In this document: positions 39,901 to 44,787 of the stretch, piece by piece
Layout: every line of letters starts with the position of its first letter
Numbering within the stretch: the stretch's first letter is position 1
Assembly: GCF_002849615.1 (NCBI RefSeq)
Contig: NZ_PDNV01000003.1
Location: 248,001 to 312,000, forward strand
Source of the DNA: Pollutimonas nitritireducens
Lineage (GTDB): Bacteria; Pseudomonadota; Gammaproteobacteria; Burkholderiales; Burkholderiaceae_B
Reading direction: 5' to 3'
Length of the DNA stretch: 64,000 nucleotides
Position numbers and translations under genes: made by a program
Notes under the pieces: model-generated
Databases searched by the model: none
What the model saw: the letters and a program-made list of their open reading frames with translations, nothing else
Told to the model about the DNA's origin: nothing

Positions 39901-40290
39901 GGCAGCGCACCTGTGCTGGCGGGCGACTCAGAATACGTGCATAAGCACATGCCTCGTTGCGTTACGGTTTCTCCTGCGCCTCCTGATAGCATAGGCACTA
40001 CCTCTTTTTTACATAATGCGATAGTAGTCGTGCATTCAGCAAACGACGGACCTGATCAGCGCAATCTTGCGGATTGATTGCATTGGCTAGCGCAGGGTAA
40101 TGAACTGATTTTTCGATTCAATATTTCAATCTTTGTCGTATAATTAAAACGTAAAAATAAGTTCGTCGACTACGATTTTTGAATCACTTTCATTGGTCGT
40201 ACGGCGGGATGCGTGCCGCCGCGTGTCAAGAAGGACGATTGCAGTGCTAGCGGGAAGAAGAATGACCATTCAACTATATGGAGATATCAA
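39901..40290. other. Control region of the arsenic operon
   Basis: This 390-base stretch separates the divergent DUF2254 gene from arsD. It contains an AT-rich promoter-like part with TATAAT at 40139-40144 and a GATTCAA/TTGAATC inverted pair around it. A 13-codon frame at 40209-40250 (MRAAACQEGRLQC) is seen but has no support. No arsR gene is present. Confidence 0.5.
40115..40185 (+). promoter_or_regulatory. Candidate arsDA-acr3 promoter with flanking inverted motif
   Basis: A consensus -10 TATAAT (40139-40144) lies between GATTCAA (40115-40121) and TTGAATC (40179-40185). The left motif is part of a direct repeat, ATTCAATATTTCAAT. Repeats of this kind resemble sites used by ArsR/ArsD-type repressors. 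The assignment is inference from position. Confidence 0.35.
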
Positions 40291-40653
40291 ATGACAGCCA
40301 TCCAAGTCTATGACCCGGCACTGTGCTGCAGCACGGGCGTGTGCGGCGTTGATGTTGAGCAGGCACTGGTGAGCTTCTTCGCCGATGTGGACTGGGCCAA
40401 ACAGAACGGCGCGCAGATCGAGCGTTTCAACCTGGCGCAGCAACCGATGGCGTTTGCCGAAAACGCGGTGGTCAAGTCTTTTCTGAAGCGGTCCGGACAA
40501 GACGCCTTGCCGCTGGTACTGATCGATGGGGAAATGGCGCTGGCCGGGCGCTACCCAACCCGCAAGGAACTGGCGCGCTGGGCAAGCATTGCCGAGACGA
40601 CCGATAGCCAATCCACAGAAGCGAACTGCTGCACTGGCACCCATTGCTGCTGA
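40291..40653 (+). CDS. arsD: Arsenite metallochaperone and repressor ArsD
   Basis: The 120-residue protein delivers As(III) to ArsA and weakly represses its operon. Cys12-Cys13 and Cys18 in the N-terminal motif CCSTGVCG form the metalloid site. Vicinal pairs at 113-114 and 119-120 in the C-terminal CCTGTHCC match the classic ArsD pattern. The start MTAIQVYDPALCC has TGGAGA 8 bases upstream. It is first in arsD-arsA-acr3, and 17 bases separate it from arsA. Confidence 0.95.
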   Translation: MTAIQVYDPALCCSTGVCGVDVEQALVSFFADVDWAKQNGAQIERFNLAQQPMAFAENAVVKSFLKRSGQDALPLVLIDGEMALAGRYPTRKELARWASIAETTDSQSTEANCCTGTHCC

Positions 40654-40670
40654 TTGCCGGAGACATCTGT

Positions 40671-42458
40671 ATGAACTTTCTTGATCATCCGCCACGTTTC
40701 TTTTTCTTCACCGGCAAAGGTGGCGTGGGCAAGACTTCCATCGCCTGCGCGACCGCTGTGAAACTGGCGGACGCAGGCAAGCGCGTGCTACTGGTCAGCA
40801 CCGACCCGGCGTCCAACGTGGGGCAGGTATTCGGTGTAGCCATTGGCAATGCGATTACTGCCATCGTGGCTGTACCGAATCTTTTTGCACTTGAAATCGA
40901 CCCCCAAGCCGCCGCACAAACCTATCGTGACCGCATTGTGGGTCCGGTACGCGGTGTGTTGCCCGACACCGTTGTCAGAGGCATCGAGGAACAGCTTTCA
41001 GGCGCCTGCACCACCGAGATTGCAGCTTTCGACGAGTTTACCGCGCTATTGGTCGATTCTGCGCTGACGGCAGACTACGACCACGTCCTGTTCGACACCG
41101 CCCCCACCGGACACACGATTCGTTTGCTGCAGTTGCCAGGAGCCTGGAGTGGCTTTCTGGCGGAAGGCAAAGGCGATGCTTCCTGTCTTGGCCCACTGGC
41201 CGGGCTGGAAAAACAACGGGAACAGTACAAGGCAGCCGTCGATGCATTGGCCGATGCCGCTCGCACACGGCTGGTTCTGGTCGCGCGTGCGCAAGCTTCC
41301 ACACTGCGTGAAGTGGCCCGGACCCACGAGGAACTCGCAGACATTGGCCTGCGCCAGCAATACCTGGTGATCAATGGCGTCTTACCCGAGGGTGCGGCAG
41401 GTGATGACGAGCTCGCCGCTGCCGTCTTTGCACGTGAACAAGCAGCCATAACCACGATTCCTGATGCACTGAAAGCACTGCCGCGCGATCAGATCGCTCT
41501 CAAGTCCTTCAATTTGGTGGGGCTCGACGCCTTACATCATTTGCTGGACAACGTCGAAACGCTGGCCGAGCATCCGGCAGCAACAAACGCCGAACCAATA
41601 GTGGCGCCTACGCTGGCCACCCTGGTCGATGAGATCGCCGCCGATGCCCACGGTCTGGTGATGGTGATGGGTAAAGGTGGTGTGGGCAAAACCACGCTGG
41701 CGGCAGCAGTGGCCGTTGAGCTCGCGCATCGCGGCCTGCCGGTTCACCTTACCACCTCCGACCCGGCCGCGCACCTGACCGAAACCCTCAGCGAAACGCT
41801 CGAGAACCTGAGCGTGAGCCGCATCGACCCCCACGCCGAGACTGAACGCTACCGCCAGCACGTACTGGAGACCAAAGGCGCCAAGCTCGATGCCCAAGGC
41901 CGCGCCTTGCTGAAGGAAGACCTGCGCTCGCCCTGTACCGAGGAGATCGCCGTCTTCCAGGCCTTCTCGCGCATTATTCGCGAAGCAGGCAAGAAATTCG
42001 TGGTGATGGACACAGCCCCCACCGGCCACACCTTGCTGTTGCTGGACGCCACCGGCGCCTACCACCGGGAAATTGCCCGTCAGATGGACGACAAGGGCAT
42101 CCACTTCACCACCCCGATGATGCAGTTGCAGGATCCAAAGCAGACCAAAGTGCTACTGGTCACGCTGGCGGAAACCACCCCGGTACTGGAAGCTGCCAAT
42201 CTGCAGGACGATCTGCGCCGTGCCGGCATCGAACCCTGGGCCTGGATCATCAACAACAGCATTGCCGCCGCGCGCACATGCTCTCCGCTTTTGCTGCAAC
42301 GCGCCGCCAATGAACGTCGCGAAATTGATGCCGTGGCCAAAGTACACGCTCAGCGGTATGCGCTGGTGCCGCTGCTGAAAGACGAACCTGTCGGCGAGGA
42401 GAACCTGCGAGCACTGTCACAAAGCCAGGCAACCACGAACGCCGAGGCCGATCTATGA
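40671..42458 (+). CDS. arsA: Arsenical pump-driving ATPase ArsA
   Basis: The 595-residue ATPase has two homologous halves, each with a deviant Walker A (GKGGVGKT at 15-22 and again near 335) and a DTAPTGHT signature. The As(III)-sensing Cys residues are seen in SGACTTE near 114 and SPCTEE near 422. ArsA energises arsenite efflux by the membrane pump. The start [10 protein letters not shown] has CGGAG upstream. Its stop overlaps the acr3 start by 4 bases (ATGA). Confidence 0.96.
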
Positions 42459-43573
42459 GCACCGCGTCATCGATCGGCTTTTTTGAACGCTACCTGTCGC
42501 TGTGGGTCGCCCTGTGTATTGCCGCTGGCATTGGCCTGGGTAGTGCTTTTCCCTTTCTGTTTCAATCCTTGGCCAGATGGGAATACGGCTCCGTCAACTT
42601 CATCGTCGCCGTGCTGATCTGGTTCATGGTGTATCCGATGATGGTGTCGGTGGATTTTTCCAGCCTCAAGCGCATCCATGAACGGCCCAAAGGGTTGATC
42701 ATCACACTGGTGGTGAACTGGCTGATCAAGCCGTTCACCATGGCCGGCCTCGGCGTGCTGTTCTTCCATTACTTCTTCATTGACTTGATCGATCCAGCCA
42801 ACGCCAGCCAGTACATCGCCGGGCTGATTCTGCTCGGCGCTGCGCCCTGCACCGCCATGGTATTTGTGTGGTCGCAACTCACGCGTGGCGACGCGACCTA
42901 TACGCTGGCACAGGTGGCGCTCAATGATGTGATCATGATCTTCGCGTTTGCACCCTTGGTTGCGTTGCTGCTGGGCGTTACCGATATCCAGGTGCCCTGG
43001 GCAACCTTGATTCTGTCAGTGGGATTATACGTGTTGATCCCGCTGATCGCCGGCGTCATCACACGCATCAGGCTCAGTCGGGAAGCAGACAATCAAGCAC
43101 AAGCAGACCTGGCGGTCTCGCGCTTCAACGCCCGGGTCAAGCCCTTGTCGATACTCGGCCTGCTGGGCACGGTGGTTCTGCTGTTCGGCTTTCAAGGTCA
43201 GATCATTCTCGATCAGCCCCTACTGATAGCGTTGATCGCGGTCCCGCTACTGATTCAGTCCTATGGCATTTTTGCCATTGCCTATGGTGCGGCGCGGCTG
43301 TGGAAAGTCCCATTCGATGTGGCAGCCCCTTGCGCATTGATCGGCACGTCCAATTTTTTCGAACTGGCCGTGGCTGTGGCCATTGGGCTGTTTGGTCTCA
43401 ATTCCGGTGCAGCGCTGGTCACTGTGGTCGGCGTGCTGGTGGAAGTGCCAGTGATGTTGTCGCTGGTGTATTTCGCTAACCGCAGCGCCGGATGGTTCCC
43501 AACGACAGAGTCGACATTATCCAAAGCGCGCGAATCCCACCTCAACCAGACACGAGGAGAACGCCATGTTTAA
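42455..43573 (+). CDS. Arsenite efflux permease of the Acr3 family
   Basis: The 372-residue transporter has ten hydrophobic segments and Acr3 signatures: the conserved Cys in [14 protein letters not shown] near 130 and the Glu in [16 protein letters not shown] near 305. It expels As(III), possibly Sb(III), using proton motive force or the ArsA ATPase. Pairing ArsDA with Acr3 rather than ArsB is known but less common. The 3' end carries a GAGGAG site and an overlapping ATG for a tiny downstream frame. Confidence 0.94.
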
Positions 43574-43687
43574 TACTGCAACGGTCGCATTGGATCTGGC
43601 TCCGGCCTCCAGAATTCATGCGGCTTTTTCGCGTATCGCCCGCAACTTGATCCATATTAAGAAATCGGGCCCTGATCTGAACGCCTG
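43565..43687 (+). CDS. Possible 40-residue peptide or gene remnant after acr3
   Basis: The frame starts [18 protein letters not shown] inside the last codons of acr3 and runs 40 residues, with GAGGAG 6 bases before the ATG, the strongest ribosome binding site in this operon. The product has no hydrophobic segment and no family I know. It could be a real coupled peptide or the N-terminal stub of a gene truncated by recombination. The next gene starts 96 bases later. Confidence 0.35.
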
Positions 43688-43783
43688 AACGGTTGGTCTG
43701 TCAAATCCATAGTGCGGCGGATAGAGAGTTTACTGGACTCAGCATGACTATCACCCGTCCGCCCGTTCCTATAGGAGAAGTTC

Positions 43784-44392
43784 ATGAAATTCACCATATA
43801 CGTGCGCAACCTCGCTGACTCGCTCACCAGTCTGATAATTCGCTCAGCTTCGGCCCACTGCGACACGGAGGATGGGCCGGCAGTTACCGATGGGCGTCGC
43901 GCCCTGGATTCCGGTAACGTCAATATCGCGTTGAAATGGGTGCGTCCCGAAGACGAAAGCGAGGTTCGTACGGCCTTTGAGCGCGCACGCAAGGTCCGGG
44001 CGGTCGGCGGTGACGCTGCGGCGCTGGCGGATCAGTGGTTTCTGGAAAATCTGGTGCGCATCCACCGCGCCGGCGAAGGAGAGGGCTACGAGGGCATTAA
44101 GCCTGCCGGAACCGCGATCCCCCCGCAGGTTCGCGCTGCGGACGAAGCGCTCGAACGGGGTACGATTGAACCTTTGCGTGGCTTGATTGAAACAGAACGC
44201 TGGGCAGAACTGGAAAAGCGCTACACCCACGCCCTCGCGCTCAAAGATTTCAATACCGACGATCTGGTGGCAGCACGTAACTACATGGACGCATACGTCT
44301 CGTTCTTCAAGTATGCCGAAGGCCATGATCACGCACACGCCCATGCCGGCCATGCGCACGAGCATGCTTCGGGCGGTTGCGGACACAACTGA
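43784..44392 (+). CDS. DUF6448-like His-rich protein with NiSOD-type leader
   Basis: The 202-residue protein has a 24-residue leader (MKFTIYVRNLADSLTSLIIR then SASA) without a proper hydrophobic core, followed by HCDTEDGPAV. The core (residues about 25-175) matches, from memory, the DUF6448 family, with NVNIALKWVRPEDE, LVRIHRAGEGEGYEG and YMDAYVSFFKYAEG. The tail (181-202) has eight His and one Cys. Only two Cys exist (26 and 199). Cleavage before His25 would expose an N-terminal His-Cys-Asp, as in nickel superoxide dismutase. Ribosome binding site TAGGAG precedes the ATG. Metal binding is inferred. Confidence 0.75.
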   Translation: MKFTIYVRNLADSLTSLIIRSASAHCDTEDGPAVTDGRRALDSGNVNIALKWVRPEDESEVRTAFERARKVRAVGGDAAALADQWFLENLVRIHRAGEGEGYEGIKPAGTAIPPQVRAADEALERGTIEPLRGLIETERWAELEKRYTHALALKDFNTDDLVAARNYMDAYVSFFKYAEGHDHAHAHAGHAHEHASGGCGHN

Positions 44393-44787
44393 TGTTCTGG
44401 TTCACCAGGGTTCGATCGAACTCGATGGCACCAACGTTGCAAGATAGCCGCCTGGCGCTGACGCGCAGGCTGCGCCGATCCACGCCAATCCGTCGGGGTG
44501 ATTTGGTGGTCGTGGATTCGCGCGCGCTGGGTAAACCCATGGTCAAGCGCATCATTGGCCTGCCGGGCGAGACGGTGACAATCAAGGCTGGCAAGGTCCG
44601 CATAGACGGTCGCGCCCTGGAGGAGCCCTATGCCAGCTTGTCGGTATTCACCGACACTTACCGGGTGCCACCGGATCACTATTTCCTGCTGGGCGACAAC
44701 CGTGACGCCTCCAGCGACAGCCGAACTTGGCGCGACCCTTATGTTCCTCGAACGGCCATCCTTGGCCGGATTCTTGGAGTGCGCTAA
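44392..44787 (+). CDS. Soluble S26 signal-peptidase-like protease (SodX-like)
   Basis: The 131-residue protein has the S26 serine-lysine dyad: Ser11 in NSMAPTL and Lys52 in VKRIIGLPGE. The box GDNRDASSDSR at 101-111 is also present. No membrane anchor precedes Ser11, unlike housekeeping LepB. Small soluble S26 proteases of this size are known as nickel-type superoxide dismutase maturation proteases. Its ATG overlaps the stop of the DUF6448-like gene by one base (TGATG), so the upstream protein is the likely substrate. The start at 44392 is preferred over an ATG five codons earlier. Confidence 0.85.
   Translation: MFWFTRVRSNSMAPTLQDSRLALTRRLRRSTPIRRGDLVVVDSRALGKPMVKRIIGLPGETVTIKAGKVRIDGRALEEPYASLSVFTDTYRVPPDHYFLLGDNRDASSDSRTWRDPYVPRTAILGRILGVR

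Follow-up and report, generated by a model that had tools for sequence, protein, structure and literature searches.

The stretch of DNA analysed here (the window) comprises 64,000 nucleotides of contig NZ_PDNV01000003.1 from Pollutimonas nitritireducens and holds a gene for a DUF6448 protein (P0001) followed by a gene for an S26 peptidase, with the TGA stop codon of the first gene and the ATG of the second sharing one base (44390-44394; Table 1). The P0001 reading frame starts with the ATG at 43784, which has an AGGAG ribosome site, and represents the single DUF6448 copy of this genome. An initial annotation, made from the sequence alone, had called the protein DUF6448-like: the family holds, whilst the "-like" can be dropped, as P0001 matches the Pfam profile PF20046 over its full length (positions 1-147 of 147) with 185.9 bits against a gathering cut-off of 27. 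The further elements named there are all present as well, namely a 24-residue non-Sec leader that ends in SASA directly before HCDTEDGP, a 22-residue tail with eight histidines at the end of P0001, and the one-base overlap leading into a 131-residue S26 peptidase without a membrane anchor.

Table 1. Features of the DUF6448-S26 locus and its upstream neighbours (positions refer to the window)
Feature	Position	Strand	Basis or remark
Upstream neighbours: arsD, arsA and the gene of an SBF-family (Acr3-like) exporter	40213..43573	+	not a conserved partner
CTTGATCCATATTAAG, differing by one mismatch from the FNR-like DNR box of beta-proteobacteria, CTTGATnnnnATCAAG	43646..43661	+	inside 40-aa ORF
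DUF6448 protein P0001, 202 aa	43784..44392	+	PF20046, 5.2e-55 over residues 30-177
24-residue leader MKFTIYVRNLADSLTSLIIRSASA, without Sec-type hydrophobic core, end A-S-A	43784..43855	+	sequence
Predicted new N-terminus HCDTEDGP; H25, C26, D27, G31 and P32 invariant	43856..43879	+	40 sequences
Residues 94-105, invariant H94, R95, E98, G99 and G104	44063..44098	+	40 sequences
C-terminal 22-residue tail, eight His	44324..44389	+	model block, pLDDT 56-65
S26 Ser-Lys peptidase, 131 aa, without membrane anchor	44392..44787	+	PF10502, 2.1e-31

Comparison of 40 DUF6448 sequences reveals that H25, C26, D27, G31, P32, H94, R95, E98, G99, G104 and R165 are invariant. The AlphaFold model of P0001 has a mean pLDDT of 88, with blocks at 93-99 across residues 31-180, values below 50 for residues 18-22 just before the predicted cut site and 56-65 for the histidine-rich tail. 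In this model T28 and K106 (the latter just past the 94-105 stretch) are the sole residues that DSSP marks as strand or bridge, and because of this the model suggests that the HCD end packs near the loop after H94-E98. P0001 also carries an internal duplication of residues 25-190 (43856-44353) with three main helices per half in the model: the two halves are aligned by hhalign with a probability of 97 and a score of 55.6, the best of 60 column shuffles reaching 20.3. A comparison of the model to PDB structures (Foldseek, VIA) gave no good match of any kind, a full-text search of open-licence PMC papers found DUF6448 or PF20046 in no paper, and literature searches for the DUF6448-S26 pair gave no paper on it.

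The leader of P0001, MKFTIYVRNLADSLTSLIIRSASA, contains no uncharged run longer than 7 residues. Such runs span 4-15 residues in the soluble leaders of the family and 17-25 in 11 Sec-type DUF6448 leaders without an S26 gene. Position -1 before HCD is Ala in all 37 leader-bearing homologues (a count that takes in L031 and L037, near-copies of L030), and position -3 is Ala in 34, Val in two and Ser in one of them. From this pattern of residues, the S26 peptidase likely cuts before HCD in the DUF6448 precursor.

The S26 partner scores 109.6 bits with PF10502 (cut-off 22.9) and begins with MFWFTRVRSN up to Ser11, hence without a hydrophobic N-terminus; the catalytic residues S11 and K52 are kept in 24/24 partner proteases. 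Clustering with LepB-type signal peptidases had been named as a finding that would speak against the initial proposal, and here the outcome is mixed: the partner lies above the curated cut-off of the signal peptidase I model TIGR02227 (105.1 bits, cut-off 47), whilst a tree built from 63 S26 proteins separates the partners from the LepB proteins of their own genomes by a branch whose support of 93/95 is not decisive. With the SodX model TIGR02754 the partner stays below the curated cut-off (30.5 bits, cut-off 63.25), and the SodX-type proteins in the tree have long branches and fall on either side. A profile built from the partners gives 136-199 bits for intact partners, 160 and 168 bits for two partners outside the model-building set and 71-90 bits for the LepB-like S26 proteins at five loci of Sec-type or leaderless genomes.

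A genome scan across bacteria and archaea with the window protein returned 21 relatives, and in 21/21 an S26 gene lies directly downstream on the same strand, including damaged copies in which the S26 gene is split over two frames (L008) or cut by a stop (L011), or in which the DUF6448 gene is broken (L016). The relatives belong to Burkholderiales, Thiobacillus, Lysobacter, Neoroseomonas, several Actinomycetota and one Chloroflexi MAG, such that the pair is seen in Pseudomonadota, Actinomycetota and Chloroflexota. Since S26 matches occur less than once per Mb (67 in ~84 Mb of 22 genomes) and yet one follows DUF6448 in every relative, the pairing exceeds chance: DUF6448 and S26 form a real, widespread pair. 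The tree of DUF6448 (40 rows) mixes phyla (an Acidimicrobiia MAG, for instance, neighbours two proteobacteria), and the gene therefore seems to move between phyla. Wider sampling drew on plasmid loci and on even whole-genome samples, the latter overlapping in a few genomes: DUF6448 was found in 3/398 genomes from the phylum of the window and 3/200 from its family, in 9/396 from the phylum and 11/294 from the family of a Nocardioides, and in 2/400 from the phylum of the Chloroflexi MAG. One DUF6448 contig (L045) has a GC content of 0.33, with 0.75 for the other locus of that genome, and is probably a contaminant.

The DUF6448 genes fall into four architectures according to their leaders. Soluble leaders of 16-28 residues are found at 15 loci including the window, and the S26 protein is free of a hydrophobic N-terminus in 14/14 of these that can be read (L008 being split). 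Membrane-type leaders possess one uncharged stretch of 18-22 residues; the net charge is not positive ahead of this stretch and lies between 0 and +2 behind it. In 10 loci they are accompanied by an S26 protein whose single N-terminal helix is inverted in charge in the same way: the segment ahead of the helix has a net charge of 0 or less in 9/10, and the ten residues that follow the helix carry +1 to +4 in 10/10. One of these loci, L011, has an unsure leader start and is absent from the leader-charge table, yet is counted with its S26 gene. True Sec signals are present at 13 loci, with S26 only in two Firmicutes (L029 and L035), and 12 further loci have no leader and start with M-[PA]-P-HCD (8/12 without any other in-frame start), with S26 beside none. 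In all four architectures HCD stands at the N-terminus or within three residues of it after the predicted cut.

The co-occurrence that had been proposed as a check is thus borne out: in a table of 51 genes, S26 adjoins 25/26 genes with non-Sec leaders and 2/25 of the Sec-type or leaderless genes (Fisher p 4e-11, calculated on related sequences that are not independent). Loci added after the rule had been seen fit it too, with two membrane-type genes having S26 and six leaderless plus two Sec-type genes having none. The converse case, a non-Sec leader gene that lacks an S26 neighbour, which the initial annotation had named as speaking against its proposal, does not occur among the 15 soluble-leader genes; for membrane-type leaders S26 is present in 10/11, the exception being L028, for which the search of the entire plasmid record gave no S26. 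The table leaves out L031 and L037, the broken copies L053/L054 and L120, the own-genome or repeat loci L001, L025, L027, L047, L109 and L111 and the context loci L083 and L084, and its plasmid coverage is partial (11/47 plasmid records of one search). For Sec-type and leaderless genes, absence of S26 means none within 0.5-4 kb 3' of the gene, or about 1.4 kb for the later-added loci. A whole-record S26 search with P0002 covered ten Sec-type or leaderless genomes (those of L110, L114-L119 and L121 not among them) as well as four plasmid records that carry Sec-type genes: the matches were LepB-like at five loci and weaker in the other five genomes, and the four plasmid records gave no P0002 match.

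Membrane helices are oriented by the positive-inside rule. From their charge pattern, the membrane-type leader and its protease would therefore both face the cytoplasm, unlike the Firmicutes pairs L029 and L035, where a Sec leader is combined with an S26 protein carrying basic residues before its helix and which look outward-facing. Hydrophobicity of leader and protease correlates across 24 loci (Spearman 0.71, with S26 starts chosen by a simple rule). The anchor type has changed independently once on supported branches and three times on the best tree; given so few changes, the match of anchors is a pattern, with co-evolution not yet proven.

Upstream of the pair, the arsenite operon noted initially is real (ArsD, ArsA and an Acr3-like exporter), but an arsenic role, within the metal or metalloid stress role that had been read from it, is not supported, with ArsA, ArsD and Acr3 found at 0/45 other DUF6448 loci (some of them repeats, many with short flanks). 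At 43566-43688, overlapping the 3' end of the exporter gene, lies an ORF of 40 aa that has a good ribosome site and no Pfam match. At 5/21 loci (L002, 4477-4962; L003; L016; L013; L015) the pair adjoins a gene for a small protein that has a signal-like stretch at its N-terminus and matches nothing in Pfam or NCBIfam. The Sec-type DUF6448 gene of L034 has silE and rcnA in its vicinity and belongs to an enterobacterial plasmid.

In terms of regulation, CTTGATCCATATTAAG is the sole match in the window to the DNR box at no more than one mismatch, with 0.12 expected, but it does carry that one mismatch and lies within the 40-aa ORF. The consensus sequences used for this comparison, CTTGATnnnnATCAAG for DNR and TTGACnnnnGTCAA for HcpR, are those given in an excerpt of PMC1274295. 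The exact motif TTGAN6TCAA occurs within 200 nt upstream in 13/41 loci, whilst 351 kb of other sequence hold 17 copies, which corresponds to an odds ratio of 33, and the HcpR consensus as worded in that excerpt is found exactly in 9/51 upstream regions. Allowing one mismatch to the excerpted HcpR and DNR boxes, there are matches at 15/27 loci with S26, 3/24 others and 46/1943 background tiles, with none in the 200 bases upstream of L002, L003 and L016, the nearest relatives of the window. A Crp/Fnr gene is adjacent or one gene away in 11/21 loci (Pfam-checked in three), and at L004 a Rrf2 regulator and a flavohemoglobin adjoin, both scoring below the specific NCBIfam cut-offs. Searching the window with Crp/Fnr, Ric, flavorubredoxin and hemerythrin queries gave no match, the Hmp query yielding nothing beyond a weak hit to a reductase at 185-811. 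Amongst Sec-type genes, that of L033 lies among Hcp, Ric and flavorubredoxin genes and that of L036 among Dps-type, Crp/Fnr and Ric genes. The recurrence of FNR/DNR/HcpR-type boxes and Crp/Fnr genes suggests a role of the pair in the response to low oxygen or nitric oxide. The genome of the window holds 13 exact TTGATn4ATCAA boxes (reversed control: 0), and because those before fnr and ccoN (cbb3 oxidase) are among them, oxygen rather than nitric oxide may be the signal to which the window box answers. These fnr and cbb3 oxidase genes and their exact FNR boxes lie at C29:227856-235522, ~12-20 kb before the start of the window.

The closest parallel to this arrangement is nickel superoxide dismutase (NiSOD), whose mature N-terminus is given as H2N-HCXXPCXXY in a passage of PMC12933891 and whose preprotein is cleaved by SodX according to a passage of PMC8346466. 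Shared with DUF6448 are a short non-Sec leader, Ala before His-Cys-Asp and a dedicated small S26 protease; NiSOD leaders in five of the same genomes end in VSA, VHA or ARA before HCD. However, DUF6448 lacks Pro5, Cys6 and Tyr9 (HCDTEDGPA in the window), and the absence of the second NiSOD cysteine stated in the initial annotation extends to 40/40 sequences at position 6. DUF6448 is also a different family from NiSOD (SodN, PF09055) and is internally duplicated, its partner protease lies below the SodX cut-off and the pair also occurs with membrane-type and Sec-type leaders. A Pfam search of P0001 with E up to 1 gave PF20046 only and no Sod_Ni (PF09055), and hhalign of P0001 against NiSOD reached a probability of 12.8 (E 0.0022) over 47 columns around HCD. 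A fold unrelated to the four-helix fold of NiSOD is no more than plausible. The genome of the window gave no NiSOD match in a search that found NiSOD in 5/22 pair genomes, four of these five having an S26-type ORF in the stretch examined. With the pair conserved and dedicated, the idea that a different family has its own two-gene counterpart of NiSOD/SodX is supported: by analogy, DUF6448 and its S26 protease would work like NiSOD/SodX in outline, whilst being a member of neither. Signal peptidase I (LepB, TIGR02227/PF10502) shares the peptidase family, the Ser-Lys dyad and the AxA motif before the cut. It carries a membrane anchor and places its catalytic domain outside, whereas the S26 partner has either no anchor or one with the reversed charge pattern, is encoded together with one likely substrate and takes a position in the tree apart from the LepB proteins of the same genomes. 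Sec-signal and leaderless DUF6448 proteins resemble the window protein in family and in the HCD at the N-terminal end, but S26 is missing next to them at 11 Sec-type loci and at the 12 leaderless ones.

In the reading that we favour, and that we hold to be somewhat better than an even bet, this dedicated pair would operate through a cytoplasmic S26 peptidase (Ser11/Lys52) whose cut in the DUF6448 precursor would follow A-S-A and separate Ala24 from His25, so exposing an N-terminal His-Cys-Asp. This end would pack against the invariant His94-Arg95...Glu98-Gly99 loop, and the histidine-rich tail would collect metal for a plausible Cys/His metal centre at the DUF6448 N-terminus. Regulators of the FNR/DNR/HcpR type would control expression of the pair, and under such control the protein would therefore act in the low-oxygen or nitric oxide response. 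The initial proposal of a His1-Cys2 site created by proteolysis is weakened in one respect, the requirement that the His1 amine be free: this is not universal because 12 homologues start with M-[PA]-P-HCD, and, as judged from the predicted starts of these leaderless forms, no other result weighs as heavily against an exact replica of the amine ligand of NiSOD. The same proteins, which keep HCD after M-[PA]-P without an adjoining S26 gene, speak for an alternative in which the S26 cut activates or relocates DUF6448 by removing a pro-segment or a membrane-docking helix, with any metal held on side chains only (His25, Cys26, Asp27, His94 and Glu98). Membrane-type leaders would be freed by such a cut, and the H94-E98 loop shows the same invariance as HCD; that HCD nevertheless stays within three residues of the N-terminus in all four architectures would be odd if its position were irrelevant, and we consider this alternative rather unlikely, though a serious competitor.

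Export offers another way to account for the leader, which would then belong to a degenerate exported protein using Sec or another exporter, with S26 serving as an accessory signal peptidase outside. Sec-type DUF6448 proteins with HCD at the same place do exist (11 without S26, two with), the protease scores as a signal peptidase I and the two Firmicutes pairs look outward-facing. Against this stand the short uncharged runs of the soluble leaders (4-15 residues versus 17-25 in Sec-type leaders), the anchorless S26 at soluble-leader loci and the reversed charge pattern in the membrane-type pairs, which together leave export improbable for the pair. We regard it as more improbable still that mature DUF6448 is a nickel superoxide dismutase by convergence: the same HCD end after a short leader, the small S26 protease, the histidine-rich tail and the lack of a NiSOD match in 17/22 pair genomes would fit, but the N-terminus lacks the Pro5, Cys6 and Tyr9 of HCXXPCXXY as quoted in the excerpt of PMC12933891, 5/22 pair genomes carry NiSOD as well, and Sec-exported and leaderless DUF6448 forms exist.

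Returning to the favoured reading, in which S26 cleavage exposes HCD for a metal centre, its wider meaning would lie in the timing of metal-site formation. To our knowledge, SodX/NiSOD is the only case of a cytoplasmic S26 protease making a metal site via a new N-terminus. Tentatively, and with the balance still somewhat against it, we suggest that DUF6448 may be a second, independently evolved family in which a dedicated cytoplasmic S26 protease would generate an N-terminal His-Cys metal centre, with four routes (a soluble leader, an inverted membrane leader, a Sec signal or none) leading to an N-terminal HCD and with a function in low-oxygen or nitric oxide defence. If true, a second family with matching leaders and protease anchors would point to a general means of controlling when a metal site is made, and would provide DUF6448 with its first testable function.
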